Positions 29,331-35,959 of a stretch of 35,959 nucleotides of DNA are shown here, one piece after another. The notes beneath the pieces were generated by a model. It saw nothing but the letters and a program-made list of their open reading frames with translations. It did not search any database and was not told the origin of the DNA. Position numbers and translations under genes: made by a program. How positions within the stretch are numbered: position 1 is the first letter of the stretch; each line of letters opens with the position of its first letter. The stretch is from an uncultured bacterium (lineage in GTDB: Bacteria; Bacillota_I; Bacilli_A; RF39; UBA660): NCBI GenBank assembly GCA_949284575.1, contig CASDWO010000109.1:1-35959 (forward strand). The letters run 5' to 3'.

Positions 29331-29373
29331 TATAATTTTTTCTTTTCAGGTAAAGCTATTAATGGGTGATAAT

Positions 29374-29823
29374 ATGGTTAATAAACGATATGAAGAAATT
29401 GTAGCAAAAAATAAACCAAAAGAAGACAAATTTAAATATGCTTTAACTGCTTTTTTTGTAGGAGGATTACTAGGAGTATTAGGAGAAACCCTAATAAGAG
29501 TATATATCTATTTCTTTAATATTTCTCGAAATGATGCTTCTACTTATATGATCATAACCTTTATCTTTTTTGCTTCTCTTTTTACAGCTTTAGGTTTCTT
29601 TGATAAATTAGTTGCGAAAGCTAAAGCAGGTCTTTTAATACCTATAACAGGTTTTGCTCATTCTATGACTAGTGCCGCCTTAGATTATAAACATGAAGGA
29701 CCTATTTATGGAATAGGTAGTAATGTTTTTAAATTAGCAGGATCCGTTATTTTTTATGGAGTTGTCTCGGCCTGGTTCTTTGGTCTTATTAGATATTTAT
29801 GGGAGGTCTTAATATGTTCTTAA
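29374..29823 (+). CDS. spoVAC: Stage V sporulation protein AC (SpoVAC)
   Basis: Inner spore-membrane protein of the SpoVA channel, which moves dipicolinic acid and calcium into the forming spore and out on germination; SpoVAC itself acts as a mechanosensitive channel in Bacillus. 149 residues with four membrane segments; AFFVGGLLGVLGETLI near the start, FDKLVAKAKAGLLIPITGFAHSMTSAALDYKHEG and GSNVFKLAGSVIFYGVVSAW are hallmark parts. I start at the ATG at 29374 because the earlier ATG at 29362 overlaps the GGGTGAT ribosome site. It overlaps spoVAD by 10 bases. Confidence 0.93.
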   Translation: MVNKRYEEIVAKNKPKEDKFKYALTAFFVGGLLGVLGETLIRVYIYFFNISRNDASTYMIITFIFFASLFTALGFFDKLVAKAKAGLLIPITGFAHSMTSAALDYKHEGPIYGIGSNVFKLAGSVIFYGVVSAWFFGLIRYLWEVLICS

Positions 29824-30806
29824 ACTTTAGAAATGTTTATCTAGATAATGTTAGTACTGTCTGTGGTCCTTATGAAGCGAAAGGTCCCTTAAAAGCTAAC
29901 TTTGATAAAAAATATAAAGATCTATACTGTTTAGAAAAATCTTTTGAAAAAGCAGAAGTTAGATTACTTGAAGATAGTATAAAAATCCTTTTAAAGAAAA
30001 CTAAACTGACTAAAGATGATATTGAATTAGTAATAGCAGGAGATTTATTAAATCAAATAACTTCATCTTGTTATGGCACCCTAAATCTAAAAAGTCCTTT
30101 TCTAGGTATTTATACAGCTTGTGCTAGTAGTATTGAAGGCATATTAATAGCAGCAACTTTTATAGATAGTGCTAAAGCTAACAACGCCATTGTTGCTTGT
30201 TCTTCTCATAATATGACTAGTGAAAAACAATTCCGTAATCCTACTGAATATGGTTCTCCTAAACCTATGACTGCTACTTTTACTGCCACAGGAGGTGCTA
30301 GTGCCCTACTTAGTAATAAACCAAGTAAAGTAAGAGTTGTAAATGGCTTAATTGGTACTATTATTGACTATAATCAAAAAGATGCTTTTAATATGGGAGC
30401 TGTTATGGCTCCTGCCGCTGCAGATACTTTATATAAATATTTAAAAGCAACTAATACTACTGTAGATGATTATGATTTAATACTAACAGGAGATTTAGGT
30501 AAATATGGTAAAGAGATTCTAAAAGATTTAATGCTAGCTAATTATAATATAAAATTAAAAGATAATTATAATGACTGTGGAACAATGCTCTATGACCTTG
30601 AAAATCAAAAAGAAGTCCTAGCAGGCGGAAGTGGTCCTGTCTGTTCTGCTTTAGTTAATTATAGTACTATCTTTAAAGATCTTTTAAAAAAGAAATATCA
30701 AAAAGTCTTATTAATAGCAACAGGAGCCCTATTTTCTCCCATGACTGTTTATCAAAAAGAAAATATTCTTTCTATTGCAAATTTAGTATGTTTGGAGGCG
30801 ATCTAA
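29814..30806 (+). CDS. spoVAD: Stage V sporulation protein AD (SpoVAD)
   Basis: Thiolase-fold, dipicolinate-binding component on the surface of the SpoVA channel. 330 residues. Family marks: FRNVYLDNVSTVCGPYEAKGPL, LGIYTACASSIEGI (the thiolase-like Cys region), SSHNMTSEKQFRNPTEYGSPKPMTATFTATGG, and LAGGSGPVCSALVNY. The start at 29814 follows GGGAGGT; the ATG at 29799 lies before that ribosome site. It overlaps spoVAC and is followed at once by spoVAE, so the three are one operon. Confidence 0.96.
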   Translation: MFLNFRNVYLDNVSTVCGPYEAKGPLKANFDKKYKDLYCLEKSFEKAEVRLLEDSIKILLKKTKLTKDDIELVIAGDLLNQITSSCYGTLNLKSPFLGIYTACASSIEGILIAATFIDSAKANNAIVACSSHNMTSEKQFRNPTEYGSPKPMTATFTATGGASALLSNKPSKVRVVNGLIGTIIDYNQKDAFNMGAVMAPAAADTLYKYLKATNTTVDDYDLILTGDLGKYGKEILKDLMLANYNIKLKDNYNDCGTMLYDLENQKEVLAGGSGPVCSALVNYSTIFKDLLKKKYQKVLLIATGALFSPMTVYQKENILSIANLVCLEAI

Positions 30807-31157
30807 ATGTATTTCCTTAATTCATTCCTTTTCTGTGGCCTTATCTGTTTAATCGCTGAACTTATTTTAGATAATACTAAACTAACTCCTGGTCATATCA
30901 CATCTTTATTCGTTGTTATCGGCGCAGCCTTAGACTCTTTTGGTATCTATGACTATTTTATCTCTAAAGTAGGCGGAGGAGCCTTACTACCAATCACCTC
31001 ATTTGGTCATTCCTTAATTCATGGTGCTTTACTAGCAGCTGAGTCTCATGGTTTTATTGGCCTTTTAATGGGAATGTTTGATTTAACTGCAACAGGTATA
31101 ACAGCAGCCATTATCTTTACTTTTGTTTTTACTTTAATTTTTAAAGCAAAAGACTAA
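30807..31157 (+). CDS. spoVAE: Stage V sporulation protein AE (SpoVAE/AEB)
   Basis: 116-residue membrane protein with four membrane segments: FLFCGLICLIAELILDNTKLTPGHITSLFVVIGA, then GGGALLPITSFGHSLIHGA, matching the SpoVAEb family. It completes the minimal SpoVAC-AD-AE set that is the most widely kept part of the channel among spore formers. spoVAA, spoVAB, spoVAEa and spoVAF are absent here. GGAGGCGAT precedes the ATG. Confidence 0.94.
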   Translation: MYFLNSFLFCGLICLIAELILDNTKLTPGHITSLFVVIGAALDSFGIYDYFISKVGGGALLPITSFGHSLIHGALLAAESHGFIGLLMGMFDLTATGITAAIIFTFVFTLIFKAKD

Positions 31158-31192
31158 TTACTGCAAATAATAATAGTAGGAGGTAGTTACTA

Positions 31193-32281
31193 ATGAAAAT
31201 ACTTATTACCATACTATTATTTTTTTTATGTTTAAATGTTAATGCTAAAACAATAACAACACCATATCTAAAAGTAAAAGAAGTAGATGCTAATTATAAA
31301 TTAAAGCCTAATGAAAAAATAGAAAAAACTACTTATTACAAACAAGAAAAAATAACTAAAGATTTTAAATATCTAGAAAGACCAAATAATATCTATTCAA
31401 TTAAAACTAATGATCTAAGGTATGGAGAATATACTAATTACACCAAAGAAAGACTTAATGATTCTTCAAAAGATGAAGATACTAAAACTATCTATTATTA
31501 TCAAGAACTAAAGAAAATAAATAGCTTGACTATTAAAAATATAAAGAATCTCTTAATTACTAAAATATCTATAAAATATAAAGATAATCTTATTTATGAA
31601 GGTAATAGTAAAAAGATATCTTTTAATAAAAAGTATAGTCCTGAATATCTAACTTTAGAAATAACTTGTTTTTTAAATCAAGAAGATCTAAAAGGTAGTT
31701 TTGAAATAATAAATTCTAATTATATAAAAGATAATATTATTGTAACTAAAAAAGGCTATAGTAAGATCAAAGTAAAATTAATTAATCATTTAAATAAATT
31801 GCTCTATGAAGATAAAGTCTTAAAGACATCTAATCTAGAAGATAAATATTATATAAAAGTACTAAAAGAAGAAACTTTATATCGTTATCGTAAGAAATAT
31901 TATAAATGTTATAAAGAAGAAATAATTACTGATAAAAAGCTAAGATATGGTTATAAAGTAATAGAAGTAATTAATAAATATTATCTATATAAAAAAGAGA
32001 CTATAGAATTATATGATAATATAATGCTAACTGATTATTTAGATTTAGATAAAATAATTAAAAGTAGTACTATTCCTCTTAGTAATTTAACATTTAATTA
32101 TAATAATACTTGTTCTAAGACTAATTTAACTATTAAATATCAAGATTTTAAAGTAACTACAGATATTACTTTTAAATGTCAAGATAATCCTAAAAGTAAA
32201 GTTCATAAAGGAAAAAATAAGTCTATAAAAAGAGAATTATTTGCTATTTTGTTTAAAACATTATTTTTAAGAAAATTGTAG
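31193..32281 (+). CDS. Secreted protein of unknown function
   Basis: 362 residues with a signal peptide (residues 1-18, cleavage likely after NVNA). I do not recognise it. The rest is very rich in Lys, Tyr, Asn and Ile, with a beta-rich pattern that may form two or three sandwich domains; three cysteines fall near the end (NTCSKTNL, FKCQDN), suggesting a disulfide. A basic tail (KSKVHKGKNKSIKREL) and a final hydrophobic stretch end the protein. It lies 35 bases after spoVAE with an AGGAGGT site, and is probably expressed with the spoVA genes, which suggests a spore or forespore-membrane role. This is inference from position. Confidence 0.55.
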   Translation: MKILITILLFFLCLNVNAKTITTPYLKVKEVDANYKLKPNEKIEKTTYYKQEKITKDFKYLERPNNIYSIKTNDLRYGEYTNYTKERLNDSSKDEDTKTIYYYQELKKINSLTIKNIKNLLITKISIKYKDNLIYEGNSKKISFNKKYSPEYLTLEITCFLNQEDLKGSFEIINSNYIKDNIIVTKKGYSKIKVKLINHLNKLLYEDKVLKTSNLEDKYYIKVLKEETLYRYRKKYYKCYKEEIITDKKLRYGYKVIEVINKYYLYKKETIELYDNIMLTDYLDLDKIIKSSTIPLSNLTFNYNNTCSKTNLTIKYQDFKVTTDITFKCQDNPKSKVHKGKNKSIKRELFAILFKTLFLRKL

Positions 32282-32302
32282 GTTAAAAATAACTTCTAGT
32301 TC

Positions 32303-32309
32303 TGTCGAA
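32303..32309 (+). promoter_or_regulatory. Spo0A-box-like heptamer upstream of sigma factor
   Basis: TGTCGAA lies 57 bases before the sigma-factor start codon. Spo0A directly activates the sigF operon in Bacillus, so the site fits a SigF role. Confidence 0.45.
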
Positions 32310-32365
32310 AGGCTTGTTTCTAAAAAAATAATCTTTATTATTAAGGTAAGAAAGGAACAACTATT

Positions 32366-33010
32366 ATGACAGAAGAAATATTAAAATATGAAGGTCTTGT
32401 TAAAAGTATTACAAACAAATATAATTTTCGTAATGATTATGATGATTTATATCAAGCTGGTATGATAGGTTTAATTACAGCATTAAAGAAATATGATCAA
32501 AAAAGAGAAAGTAATTTTATAGATTATGCTTATTTTTATATTAAAGGAGAAATATTAAAGACAATTAATAGTGATTATCAAGTTAAAGTATCTTGTGATA
32601 CTTATAAATTAAGTAAAGAGATAAATGAAACTAGAATCTTTTTAGCACAAAGTTTAGGAAGAGAACCAACTACTTATGAAATAAGTTATGTATTAGGAGA
32701 AAGTGAAGAAAAGATAATTAGTGTTATAAATGCTCTTAGTAATATTTATAGTTTAGATAATAATAGTCTAGATGAAGATATTAATCTTTATAATAAGATA
32801 GCATTAATAGAAAAAGGATATGATGTTGGAGTATTAGATTTAAAAGAAGCGATAAACACTTTAGAAGAAAGTGAAAGAGAATTAATAACCACAAGATACT
32901 ATCAAGATATGACTCAAAAAGAAACAGCAGAAGTCTTAGGAATTAGTCAAGTTCAAGTAAGTAGAAAAGAAAGTAAAATACTAGAGAAATTAAAAAGTAA
33001 AGTAGCTTAA
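32366..33010 (+). CDS. Sporulation sigma factor, SigF/SigG type
   Basis: Sigma-70 family member of 214 residues. Region 2 is YDDLYQAGMIGLITALKKYDQKRESNFIDYAYFYIKGEILKTI, followed by a region-3 part resembling SigF/SigB/SigG (VKVSCDTYKLSKEINETRIFLAQSLGREPTTYEISYVLG) and region 4 with helix-turn-helix TQKETAEVLGISQVQVSRKESKIL. There is no pro-sequence, which argues against SigE/SigK. In Bacillus, sigF is just upstream of spoVA; here a related sigma lies just downstream, and the Spo0A-like box before it favours SigF over SigG. spoIIAA/spoIIAB are not seen, so its anti-sigma must be encoded elsewhere. Confidence 0.8.
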   Translation: MTEEILKYEGLVKSITNKYNFRNDYDDLYQAGMIGLITALKKYDQKRESNFIDYAYFYIKGEILKTINSDYQVKVSCDTYKLSKEINETRIFLAQSLGREPTTYEISYVLGESEEKIISVINALSNIYSLDNNSLDEDINLYNKIALIEKGYDVGVLDLKEAINTLEESERELITTRYYQDMTQKETAEVLGISQVQVSRKESKILEKLKSKVA

Positions 33011-33124: not shown

Positions 33125-35011
33125 ATGAAAAAGAATAAAGAGAAAGTAGTAATAATAAGTTTACTAGTATTATTGCTTGTTTTAACAGTGGGAATAAGTT
33201 ATGCAGCATTTAGTTATAGTGGACTAGGTACAAAGCTAAATACAATTACTACAGGAAGTATTTCTATGACATATAGTGAAACAGATAATGTTATAAGTCT
33301 AGATAAAGCCCTACCTACAACAGATAAGACAGGAAAAACATTAGAAGATTATTTTGAATTTACTGTATCAAGCAACATATCAGGAGATACAAATATTAAT
33401 TATGAGATCAGTGCAAAAGCTGAACCTAATAATACTTTTAGTGGAGAAAATGTTAAGTTATATTTAACAAGAGTAACAGATAATGGTGAAGAAGAAGTAA
33501 TGGCTCCTGAAATATATAATGAAGAGGAAAATGCTAACAGCTTTACAGGAAGACCAGCAAATGAAATGAGCTTATATACTTCAAGTATGAGTGCAAGTGA
33601 ATCAAATACATATCGTTTAAGAATGTATGTAACGGAAGAATATAATCCTCAAGGTGATGGAGGAAATTTAACTTTTAGTGTTAAAGTAAATGTTTATGGA
33701 AAAGATAGAGTAGCTGATGAAGTAAGTGATGTGTTACTTGCAAATATACCTGAAGAAAATCAATATGATGATGGAGTAGATACCTTTATTACAGGAGAAA
33801 ATCCAAACAATTATATATGGTATAGTGGAAAACTATGGAGAGCGGTGTCTATAAATAATGATGCTAAGACAACAAAATTAGTAACCCAGTGGAATATAAG
33901 TACAATTACATATAATCCTATTAATCAAACTAACTTTGAGGGAAGTTTTATGCAAGATTGGTTAAATGATACAACAGTAGATGGTTTTCTTGGTAATTTA
34001 AGGGATTATGAATACTTTATAGTGACAGATGCAGAGTGGGATGCCACATTAGATGCAACTGATTTAGAAAGTATAACAAGACCAAATGGAACAACAGCAG
34101 TAACAGCACCTGTAGGACTTTTAAACATGTATGAGTATCAATCTAGCAATAACGGGAGAACAGATGGATATTTAAATAATGGACTTTGGTGGTGGACCTT
34201 AACACCATATAGTTCGTCATACGTGCGTGGCGTGAGCTACGATGGCAGTGAGTACAGCAATTATCCTTCGTACGCGCGCGGCGTTCGCCCATCAATAAAT
34301 CTAAAATCTAGCGTTCGTATCGTAGATGGTGATGGAACAGAGAATAACCCGTATCGTTTAGAAGGAGATAATGATACAGATCTTTTGGGAACACTACTAA
34401 ATACAAGATATAGCGGTGAATATATTCGTTTTGGAAATGATGAAAATGACCTCTATAGAATAGTAAGTCACGAAAATGGTTCAGGAACAAAAATAGTAAG
34501 TGTTGTTCCTCTAAAAAACAGTGGTTCTTATATAGAAAGCACCTTTGGAAGTAATACATCATATTCAAGTACAAATACAATAGGTACATTCTTAAATGGA
34601 GAATATCTAACAAGTTATGTAGATAGTACATATAGTAATATGATAGAAGATAGTACTATATGGTATTTAGGGACAGTAGGAAGTGGTACATCATATAAAT
34701 TAGCAAAATATGTAGATACCAATATGAGTAGTACAACTACATCAACTACAAATGCCAAAGTAGGGTTACTTCGTATGGGAGAATTAATGGCTGGCCAATT
34801 TGATAGATATAATAATAACACTTATTATTGGATCTTAACACCATATAGTTCGTCAATCGTGCGTAGCGTGACCTACAATGGCATTGAGAACATCGGCAGT
34901 CCTTCGTACGCGTTCGGCGTTCGCCCATCCATAAATCTAAAATCTAACGTACAAATTATAAATGGTGATGGGACCTTAAATTCACCATTTGAAATACAGT
35001 TAGAAAGTTAA
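33125..35011 (+). CDS. DGR target: surface protein with two tandem hypervariable SUMF1/C-lectin-like domains
   Basis: 628 residues. Basic N-terminus and hydrophobic segment (7-27, signal or anchor ending SYAAFSYSG), then a beta-sandwich region (about 28-195) resembling TasA/camelysin-like proteins (ITTGSISMTYSE). Two similar DUF6273-like domains follow: first about 220-415, second about 420-628. Each ends in a variable stretch: residues 364-387 (S-S-Y-V-R-G-V-S-Y-D-G..., VR1) and 576-599 (S-S-I-V-R-S-V-T-Y-N-G..., VR2), both before GVRPSINLKS. The VR DNA differs from the nearby TR almost only at adenines. This marks it as the target protein of a diversity-generating retroelement. Likely a displayed binder; ligand unknown. 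GGTGATG ribosome site and its own promoter. Confidence 0.9.
   Translation: MKKNKEKVVIISLLVLLLVLTVGISYAAFSYSGLGTKLNTITTGSISMTYSETDNVISLDKALPTTDKTGKTLEDYFEFTVSSNISGDTNINYEISAKAEPNNTFSGENVKLYLTRVTDNGEEEVMAPEIYNEEENANSFTGRPANEMSLYTSSMSASESNTYRLRMYVTEEYNPQGDGGNLTFSVKVNVYGKDRVADEVSDVLLANIPEENQYDDGVDTFITGENPNNYIWYSGKLWRAVSINNDAKTTKLVTQWNISTITYNPINQTNFEGSFMQDWLNDTTVDGFLGNLRDYEYFIVTDAEWDATLDATDLESITRPNGTTAVTAPVGLLNMYEYQSSNNGRTDGYLNNGLWWWTLTPYSSSYVRGVSYDGSEYSNYPSYARGVRPSINLKSSVRIVDGDGTENNPYRLEGDNDTDLLGTLLNTRYSGEYIRFGNDENDLYRIVSHENGSGTKIVSVVPLKNSGSYIESTFGSNTSYSSTNTIGTFLNGEYLTSYVDSTYSNMIEDSTIWYLGTVGSGTSYKLAKYVDTNMSSTTTSTTNAKVGLLRMGELMAGQFDRYNNNTYYWILTPYSSSIVRSVTYNGIENIGSPSYAFGVRPSINLKSNVQIINGDGTLNSPFEIQLES
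34213..34286 (+). repeat. DGR variable repeat 1 (VR1)
   Basis: 74 bp aligned without gaps to the TR. 13 of 26 template adenines are changed, including two whole AA pairs (AAC to GGC, AAC to CGC). Among 48 non-adenine positions there is one change (a third-base C to T in the ninth AAY codon). Both ends (TTCGTCA, GGCGTTC) are identical to the TR. Confidence 0.93.
34849..34922 (+). repeat. DGR variable repeat 2 (VR2)
   Basis: 74 bp aligned without gaps to the TR. 12 of 26 template adenines are changed (for example AAC to GGC, AAC to TTC) and none of the 48 non-adenine positions. It differs from VR1 at many of the same adenine-derived sites, so the two sites diversify independently. Confidence 0.95.
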
Positions 35012-35012
35012 C

Positions 35013-35048
35013 AGTCACGAAAGAGAAATATAATTCTCTTTCGTGACT
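35013..35048 (+). repeat. 15-bp perfect hairpin between target gene and TR
   Basis: AGTCACGAAAGAGAA and TTCTCTTTCGTGACT (35013-35027 and 35034-35048) with 6-base loop ATATAA, starting two bases after the stop codon. No T-run follows, so it is not a standard terminator; it might still stop or stabilise the mRNA, or be a DGR cis element such as the hairpin found downstream of VR in the Bordetella phage system. Confidence 0.8.
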
Positions 35049-35087: not shown

Positions 35088-35250
35088 AGGAAATTACCAA
35101 AATTTTCGTCAAACGTGCGTAACGTGAACAACAATGGCAATGAGAACAACAACAATCCTTCGAACGCGAACGGCGTTCACCATTTCCTTTTAAACCTAGC
35201 ATTATAGTTAATAACTATATAGAATAGATAAAAGGAACAGGTAATTTCCT
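35088..35250 (+). ncRNA. DGR template RNA region, bracketed by an 11-bp inverted repeat
   Basis: AGGAAATTACC (35088-35098) and GGTAATTTCCT (35240-35250) are perfect inverted copies on either side of the TR, able to close the template RNA as a long stem-loop. Inside, after the TR, is a second palindrome, TATAGTTA-A-TAACTATA (35203-35219). No protein frame covers the region. RNA boundaries are not known; those given are the arms of the repeat. Confidence 0.6.
35105..35178 (+). repeat. DGR template repeat (TR)
   Basis: 74-bp non-coding copy of the VRs, 183 bp after VR2, same strand. Read in the VR frame it has twelve AAY (Asn) codons at exactly the variable residues and GC-rich fixed codons between them. 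The other adenines are the third base of a TCA and the middle base of a GAG. The 3' end matches the VRs through GGCGTTC and then differs (ACCAT against GCCCAT). Shorter than most described TRs. Confidence 0.95.
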
Positions 35251-35459: not shown

Positions 35460-35807
35460 ATGATAAATATGGAATCTAATTTAGTTTACTTTAAACGTAA
35501 AGGAGTAATGATTTATGTAAATAAGAGTGATAGTTATATTGTTAGTTATCTATTAGATAAACCTTATAAAGATACTTTCTATATTGAAAGAAATTCAATT
35601 AGTAAGTTAATAACTTTATTAAATAAATGTCATATTAATTATCTCTATGATAAGCCTAATACTTTTTCTGATAATAAATATTCTAAGTATCTAGAGTATG
35701 GTAAGTTATCTAATAGAATAGATAAATTATCTACTAACCTAAAGAATTGTTTATATCTAGATAATATTGAAGATATTATTTCTAAGATGGAGAAGTTCTA
35801 TGAGTAG
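35460..35807 (+). CDS. DGR accessory protein, possible MutS-domain-I-like
   Basis: 115 residues. The order VYFKRKGVMIYVNKSDSYIVSYLL, then YIERNSISKLITLLNKCHINYLYD, follows the secondary-structure pattern of the MutS mismatch-binding N-terminal domain ('LLFRMGDFYELF..DA..AA..L', then '[25 protein letters not shown]'). From memory, surveys of DGRs list a MutS-like (MSL) accessory gene type; this fits, but the match is by eye and distant. Start either at 35460 (AAGGGAAAG 8 bases upstream) or at the ATG at 35469 (GGGAG ten bases upstream). Its end overlaps the next frame by eight bases, so the genes are coupled. Confidence 0.55.
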   Translation: MINMESNLVYFKRKGVMIYVNKSDSYIVSYLLDKPYKDTFYIERNSISKLITLLNKCHINYLYDKPNTFSDNKYSKYLEYGKLSNRIDKLSTNLKNCLYLDNIEDIISKMEKFYE

Positions 35808-35959
35808 TTTTGTTTTAGAAAATAAACTTAAAGAAATAGATATTATTACTGATAAAATAATTTTAAATATTAATAATAAATATAAAACACTCAAGAATAA
35901 TATAATAGACTCTAATTATAAATTACTTTATTACTTATATTATACTAATACTTTAGAAA
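35800..35959 (+). CDS. Partial gene running off the window (helical N-terminus)
   Basis: Open frame from ATG at 35800 through the last base, 53 codons visible, starting MSSFVLENKLKEIDIITDKI and continuing with Lys/Asn/Tyr-rich helical sequence (YYLYYTNTLE). It is coupled to the preceding gene by an overlap. No reverse-transcriptase motif is visible in this part; it may be an Avd-like helical-bundle accessory protein or the N-terminal extension of the reverse transcriptase. Which one cannot be decided from here. Confidence 0.6.
   Translation, partial: MSSFVLENKLKEIDIITDKIILNINNKYKTLKNNIIDSNYKLLYYLYYTNTLE

Follow-up and report, generated by a model that had tools for sequence, protein, structure and literature searches.

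The stretch of DNA analysed here (the window, 35,959 nt) is the whole of contig C109 in a 1.48-Mb genome of 110 contigs from a gut bacterium belonging to the Candidatus Onthousia group (Bacilli); the genus-mates used for comparison include Candidatus Onthousia species. The window carries a DGR cassette in the order target gene, template repeat (TR), MutS-I-like ORF (MSL) and Avd-like gene, the last of which reaches the contig end (Table 1). The differences between the TR and the variable repeats (VR1 and VR2) lie at template adenines, in the window as in the genus-mates, and two VRs of a single TR are found inside one ORF. Upstream of the target gene, positions 29362-33010 hold SpoVAC, SpoVAD and SpoVAE genes and a SigF-type sigma factor.

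Table 1. Features of the DGR cassette, in window positions
Feature	Position	Strand	Remarks
Target gene, 628 aa	33125..35011	+	ORF; hydrophobic N-terminus, beta-rich module and two tandem DUF6273; conserved in genus-mates
N-terminal secretion signal and beta-sandwich module, possibly TasA/bundling-pilus-like	33125..33772	+	model, Foldseek
Domain D1 (DUF6273), holds VR1	33782..34375	+	DUF6273 33.3 bits
VR1	34213..34289	+	77 nt; differs from TR at 14/27 A and 1/50 non-A
VR1 3' flank motif (CATCAATAAATCTAAAATCTAGC), candidate homing signal within the CDS	34290..34312	+	third-position conservation near 1.0 (DGR-class D1 genes); Leu CTA 33/35
Domain D2 (DUF6273), holds VR2	34376..35008	+	DUF6273 25.5 bits
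VR2	34849..34925	+	77 nt; differs from TR at 13/27 A and 0/50 non-A
VR2 3' flank motif (CATCCATAAATCTAAAATCTAAC)	34926..34948	+	Leu CTA 31/33 (DGR-class D2 genes)
Strong 15-bp hairpin, candidate terminator or DGR hairpin	35013..35048	+	directly 3' of target stop; DNA fold -15.5 kcal/mol, z -7.9
TR	35105..35181	+	77 nt, non-coding; in frame 14 variable codons, no reachable stop
MutS-domain-I-like small accessory ORF (MSL), 115 aa	35460..35807	+	kept between TR and Avd in genus-mates
Start of Avd-like gene	35800..35959	+	ends at contig end; first 53 aa match the genus-mate gene that separates MSL from RT

The cassette and its accessory genes

In the same 77-nt register, the bias of the TR-to-VR changes towards adenine is highly significant for both repeats (Fisher p 2.9e-7 for VR1 and 1.1e-7 for VR2). 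Of the 15 sites at which the two VRs disagree, 14 are template A; both VRs have the flanks CTTAACACCATATAGTTCGTCA on the 5' side and CATCNATAAATCTAAAATCT on the 3' side. These results agree with an earlier note on this DNA, which had placed TR, VR1 and VR2 where they are found here, with A-specific differences, and had described the flanks before and after both VRs as invariant. The outer flanks of the VRs are absent from the TR, the 3' side of which reads ATTTCC... Both VRs are in frame in the 628-aa ORF and in the identical reading phase. Most of the variable codons of the TR (12 of 14) are AAY, with 15 residues each, and the 14 codons together give a repertoire of about 2e15 variants per VR. 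Codon-shuffled VRs reach a maximum template score of 12.6, compared with 49 for VR1 and 53 for VR2, and a scan letting only A change found no other TR/VR pair on the window's + strand.

Pfam gives no direct match for the window MSL; in hhalign MSL reaches 91% to an ORF of another DGR-like locus of the same genome, which passes the Pfam MutS_I cut-off. MSL is present in 18 of the 60 genomes searched, the window genome included, all from one genus. The Avd-like start is 68–98% identical, over 33–53 aa, to the genus-mate gene between MSL and the reverse transcriptase (RT) gene. The genus-mate Avd-like proteins score 13.9–16.9 bits against bAvd, under the 40-bit Pfam cut-off; their size and position fit Avd. 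The genus-mate cassettes run target-TR-MSL-Avd-RT, with acetate kinase 3' of the RT in five of them, and the RT, where complete, has 301–317 aa with IGNYTSQ and YMDD, the former in the GxxxSQ form known as the DGR signature. An RT is thus expected downstream of the window Avd-like gene. The contig stops inside that gene, the RT of the window cassette is not in the assembly, and no complete RT copy was found; contig C106 has, beside a truncated TR, the C-terminal part of an RT that is 85% identical to that of the genus-mates.

The C106 locus (L195, positions 7-1143) is a second cassette remnant, which includes the D2 end of another target. Its TR is broken at a 32-nt palindrome, CGCGAATTATAAGACATGTCTTATAATTCGCG, and a group-II-intron-like 3' end (GAGCCGTATGCGGG...) is fused to the last 80 DGR RT codons, followed by acetate kinase. 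In four genomes (L072, L078, L080 and L195), much the same palindrome interrupts TR-like sequence at a closely similar position. Two more DGR-like RT loci with bAvd genes occur in the window genome, on contigs C39 (L003) and C74 (L004), the former also with a MutS_I-like ORF and the end of a target-like ORF upstream. Near these two RT loci no credible TR/VR pair was detected, the sole match resembling AT-rich chance.

The two-domain target and the motif behind each variable repeat

D1 and D2 each pass the Pfam DUF6273 cut-off (23.5 bits) as whole domains. Profile comparison aligns them with an E-value of 7e-24, but the alignment is confined to the 86 C-terminal columns in which the VR lies; no relation between their N-terminal halves is detectable. 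The duplication of the whole domain proposed in the earlier note is thus visible in part, in the C-terminal halves. DUF6273 is described as C-lectin-like, with the VR forming a surface hairpin (PMC10743442). In the AlphaFold model of the whole target the mean pLDDT is 49, D1 modelled with D1+D2 sequences reaches 48.8, and both domains are mostly below 50, a level at which the relative orientation of the variable faces is not readable. The low-confidence domain model yields weak structural matches (Z 2.2–3.7) to Lcl, NKp80 and NKR-P1, among others.

Model confidence is fair for the N-terminal module (pLDDT mostly 65–91 at residues 40–190), which has no Pfam family match; its best Foldseek match is the bundling pilus 7ueg (E 9e-4, TM-score 0.42 by target length). 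That pilus is reportedly linked to TasA-type biofilm fibres (reference listed in PMC9674648), and the target may be displayed on a surface fibre. Bivalent or dual-specificity binding by the target, as envisaged before, could be realised with about even probability. Between cassettes (the window compared with L100–L112), the N-terminal module varies, with MKKNKEK, LTKMAKR and MDKSRKK types, and D1–D2 are conserved, which suggests that N-terminal modules may have been swapped.

The motif AATCTAAAATCTA follows both VRs, is conserved at synonymous sites and is missing from the TR; over the 21–24 nt 3' of each VR the same synonymous codons are used in both domains. The Leu codon in this flank is CTA in 64 of 68 DGR-class VRs compared with 45 of 64 VRs without a template match, and the share of CTA in the other window genes is 20%. 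Within a protein, the third-position identity of D1 and D2 is 0.82 in the 3' flank as against 0.38 outside the VR, and the 5' flank is less conserved (0.50). Common ancestry of the paralogues accounts for part of this conservation within each domain, not between domains. In the BPP-1 DGR, a 24-bp element directly 3' of the VR is required and upstream sequences are dispensable (PMC3240598). By analogy, we infer that AATCTAAAATCTA is a candidate homing signal. The locus resembles BPP-1 (Mtd) in its TR/VR logic and in having the motif at the place of the 24-bp element; the BPP-1 element, however, is a hairpin after a single C-terminal VR (PMC3240598), whereas the Onthousia motif is coding, follows both VRs and shows no hairpin. 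A BPP-1-type short hairpin was found beside neither VR1 nor VR2, and the hairpin after the target stop is far from VR1. With the motif behind both VRs, the internal one included, DGR target-site marking becomes testable where the signal also encodes protein.

Probable rewriting of both variable repeats across the genus

Seven cassettes of the genus, that of the window included, each combine one TR with two A-mutated VRs: in the six genus-mates, too, two segments of the target match the one TR that separates it from MSL, and both are changed mainly at A. Summed in fixed registers, VR1 differs from TR at 89 of 173 A and 17 of 373 non-A positions, and VR2 at 66 of 150 and 8 of 316, with L096 left out of the VR2 sum as a misregistered cassette. 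These fixed-register counts are fairer than the score of the A-only scan by which VRs are found, which favours few non-A changes. A sites changed in both VRs number 45 compared with 40 expected, and in 19 of the 45 the substituted base is the same. Substitutions in VR1 and VR2 are therefore close to independence, as had been surmised for the window.

Relatives of the target are numerous. The genome has 45 matches to it, about 20 of which span parts of both domains; at least five other paralogues carry template-coherent VR pairs (own-pair third-position identity 0.83–0.96), whereas only two TRs were found, one intact and the other, on C106, truncated. The VRs of one locus (L017) resemble a template type known from genus-mates. 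No relatives were found among the viral contigs searched, so that there is no sign of a phage target. In relatives (L118, L137, L149 and L164), two full-length two-domain target genes lie close by on one contig.

The two domains of a protein and its two VRs show opposite patterns of identity. Among ten loci of the cassette type, D1 and D2 within a protein share about 24% amino acid identity outside the VR, compared with 78% (D1–D1) and 74% (D2–D2) between loci. Third codon positions outside the VR are 38% identical between D1 and D2 within a protein as against 63–66% for the same domain between species; in the VR, the relation is reversed, with 87% identity between VR1 and VR2 of one protein and 60–64% between proteins. 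In a VR-only codon alignment of the ten loci, mean identity is 0.67 for other pairs and 0.89 for the own pair, and none of 100,000 permutations reached the latter. The trend extends to the 86 two-domain paralogues sampled, with a third-position mean of 0.74 for own pairs and 0.54 between proteins (permutation maximum 0.595). Own-pair identity is 0.83 or above in 34 of these genes, and many of the others look decayed or never targeted. Both VRs match a TR known in the genus in 24 of the 86 genes, compared with 0 of 172 shuffled VRs. Among genes matched to a common template, both VRs vary at A and scarcely at other positions; in one pair of 87%-identical genes, VR1 differs at 14 of 24 A and 1 of 57 non-A positions, and VR2 at 11 of 28 and 3 of 60.

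Identity that is high within and low between proteins in the VRs, the reverse of the rest of the domain, indicates that a shared template rewrites both VRs. The simplest reading of these alignments is that the TR would repeatedly overwrite both sites, in a two-domain layout that is, judging from the sequences compared, older than the split of the sampled species. One template can thus hold two sites of one protein under rewriting while the remainder diverges, and cross-species comparison of this kind offers a way to infer DGR activity from assembled genomes without reads.

Origin of the paired repeats and relation to known systems

The locus is very probably a chromosomal DGR of a Candidatus Onthousia-type Bacilli genome in which both VRs of one protein are written from one TR. 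By analogy with known DGR biochemistry, the TR RNA would be copied, with errors at A, by the RT and an accessory protein, and the cDNA would replace VR1 or VR2 in separate events, each VR being recognised through its own 3' end and the downstream AATCTAAAATCTA motif. The exported target would then present two independently changing C-type-lectin-like faces, allowing combinatorial binding.

The earlier note had already seen one template serving two DGR-competent VRs in homologous tandem domains of a single polypeptide, which stands; it had traced the likeness of the VRs to the duplication itself, which does not, the domains being anciently diverged (about 24%) and the VRs re-homogenised by the template. 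A recent whole-domain duplication that left two similar VRs, both still changing, would fit the DUF6273 affiliation of both domains and the strong alignment of their C-terminal halves, but is barely credible given that D1 and D2 of one protein are far less alike outside the VR than the same domain in different species (24 against 74–78% of amino acids, 38 against 63–66% of third positions) and that the two-domain layout predates the split of these species. It is also highly improbable that the DGR writes only the TR-adjacent VR2, with VR1 obtaining its sequence from VR2 by gene conversion. VR2 does occupy the C-terminal position, where most DGR targets have their VR (PMC8144416), and the single non-A mismatch in the window sits in VR1; yet the two VRs differ at 14 of 27 A sites, and the sharing of substituted bases is near chance across cassettes. 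Gene conversion would be expected to bring D2 flanks into D1, whereas the domains outside the VR stay about 24% identical. Neither VR is consistently nearer its template across paralogues, a greater fidelity of VR2, hinted at by the seven cassettes, being absent in the set of 86.

A further question concerns present activity and is compatible with the writing of both VRs from one TR: the cassette might be dead and its VRs fossils. The missing RT, the C106 remnant with its truncated TR and broken RT, and damaged MSL or RT genes in several relatives would all accord with such a relic, which we nevertheless regard as unlikely. Non-A mismatches to the TR are 0 of 50 in VR2 and one in VR1, so that the last writing was recent relative to drift; the surviving part of the cassette runs stop-free to the contig end, and five genus-mates (L096, L101, L102, L105 and L112) keep an RT ORF of 304–317 aa with both motifs, the TR and two matching VRs.

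Far more tentatively, and with less than even probability, the genus may run a template-governed repertoire of two-headed surface proteins. Each small genome would contain about 20 two-domain paralogues and one or two TR cassettes; many of the paralogues would be stranded, their VR pairs still bearing the mark of templates that the genome itself no longer has. Template turnover would then leave an archive of frozen binding specificities, and internal sites would be opened to homing by the short coding motif that follows each VR.

A target with two VRs is already a reported, though uncommon, layout of the known DGR system, of which the window provides a new example in Bacilli with unusually clear comparative evidence that both VRs are held in step with their template; no DGR paper for Onthousia was found in the open-access literature. 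That most described targets have one VR, as previously stated, is true, with the qualification that proteins with several VRs have been published (PMC3521204, PMC6642488, PMC10907252). Among these, Marichromatium purpuratum 984 has several VRs in one target (PMC3521204), and the VRs of one target of Thiohalocapsa PB-PSB1 DGR 4 have been diversified in nature to different extents (PMC10907252). The Onthousia target resembles that of M. purpuratum 984 and those of PB-PSB1 DGR 4/5 in its tandem C-type-lectin domains with a VR in each (PMC10907252, PMC3521204). Those, however, have three VRs and are vWA/FGE-sulfatase-type proteins that belong to conflict systems of purple sulfur bacteria, whereas the Onthousia target joins an N-terminal beta module to two diverged DUF6273 domains and comes with an MSL gene and a large family of paralogues. 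The MetaCSST cases, 31 DGRs with several VRs in one ORF, share the overlap of several VRs with one target ORF but come from a survey only, and the case it highlights, from Pseudomonas, shows few A-to-N changes in its 21 VRs (PMC6642488). DUF6273 is shared with gut phage DGR targets, the tentaclins and those of Faecalibacterium prophages, in which the VR is a surface hairpin in published models; these, by contrast, are phage proteins with their VRs in separate genes (PMC10743442, PMC11792537).
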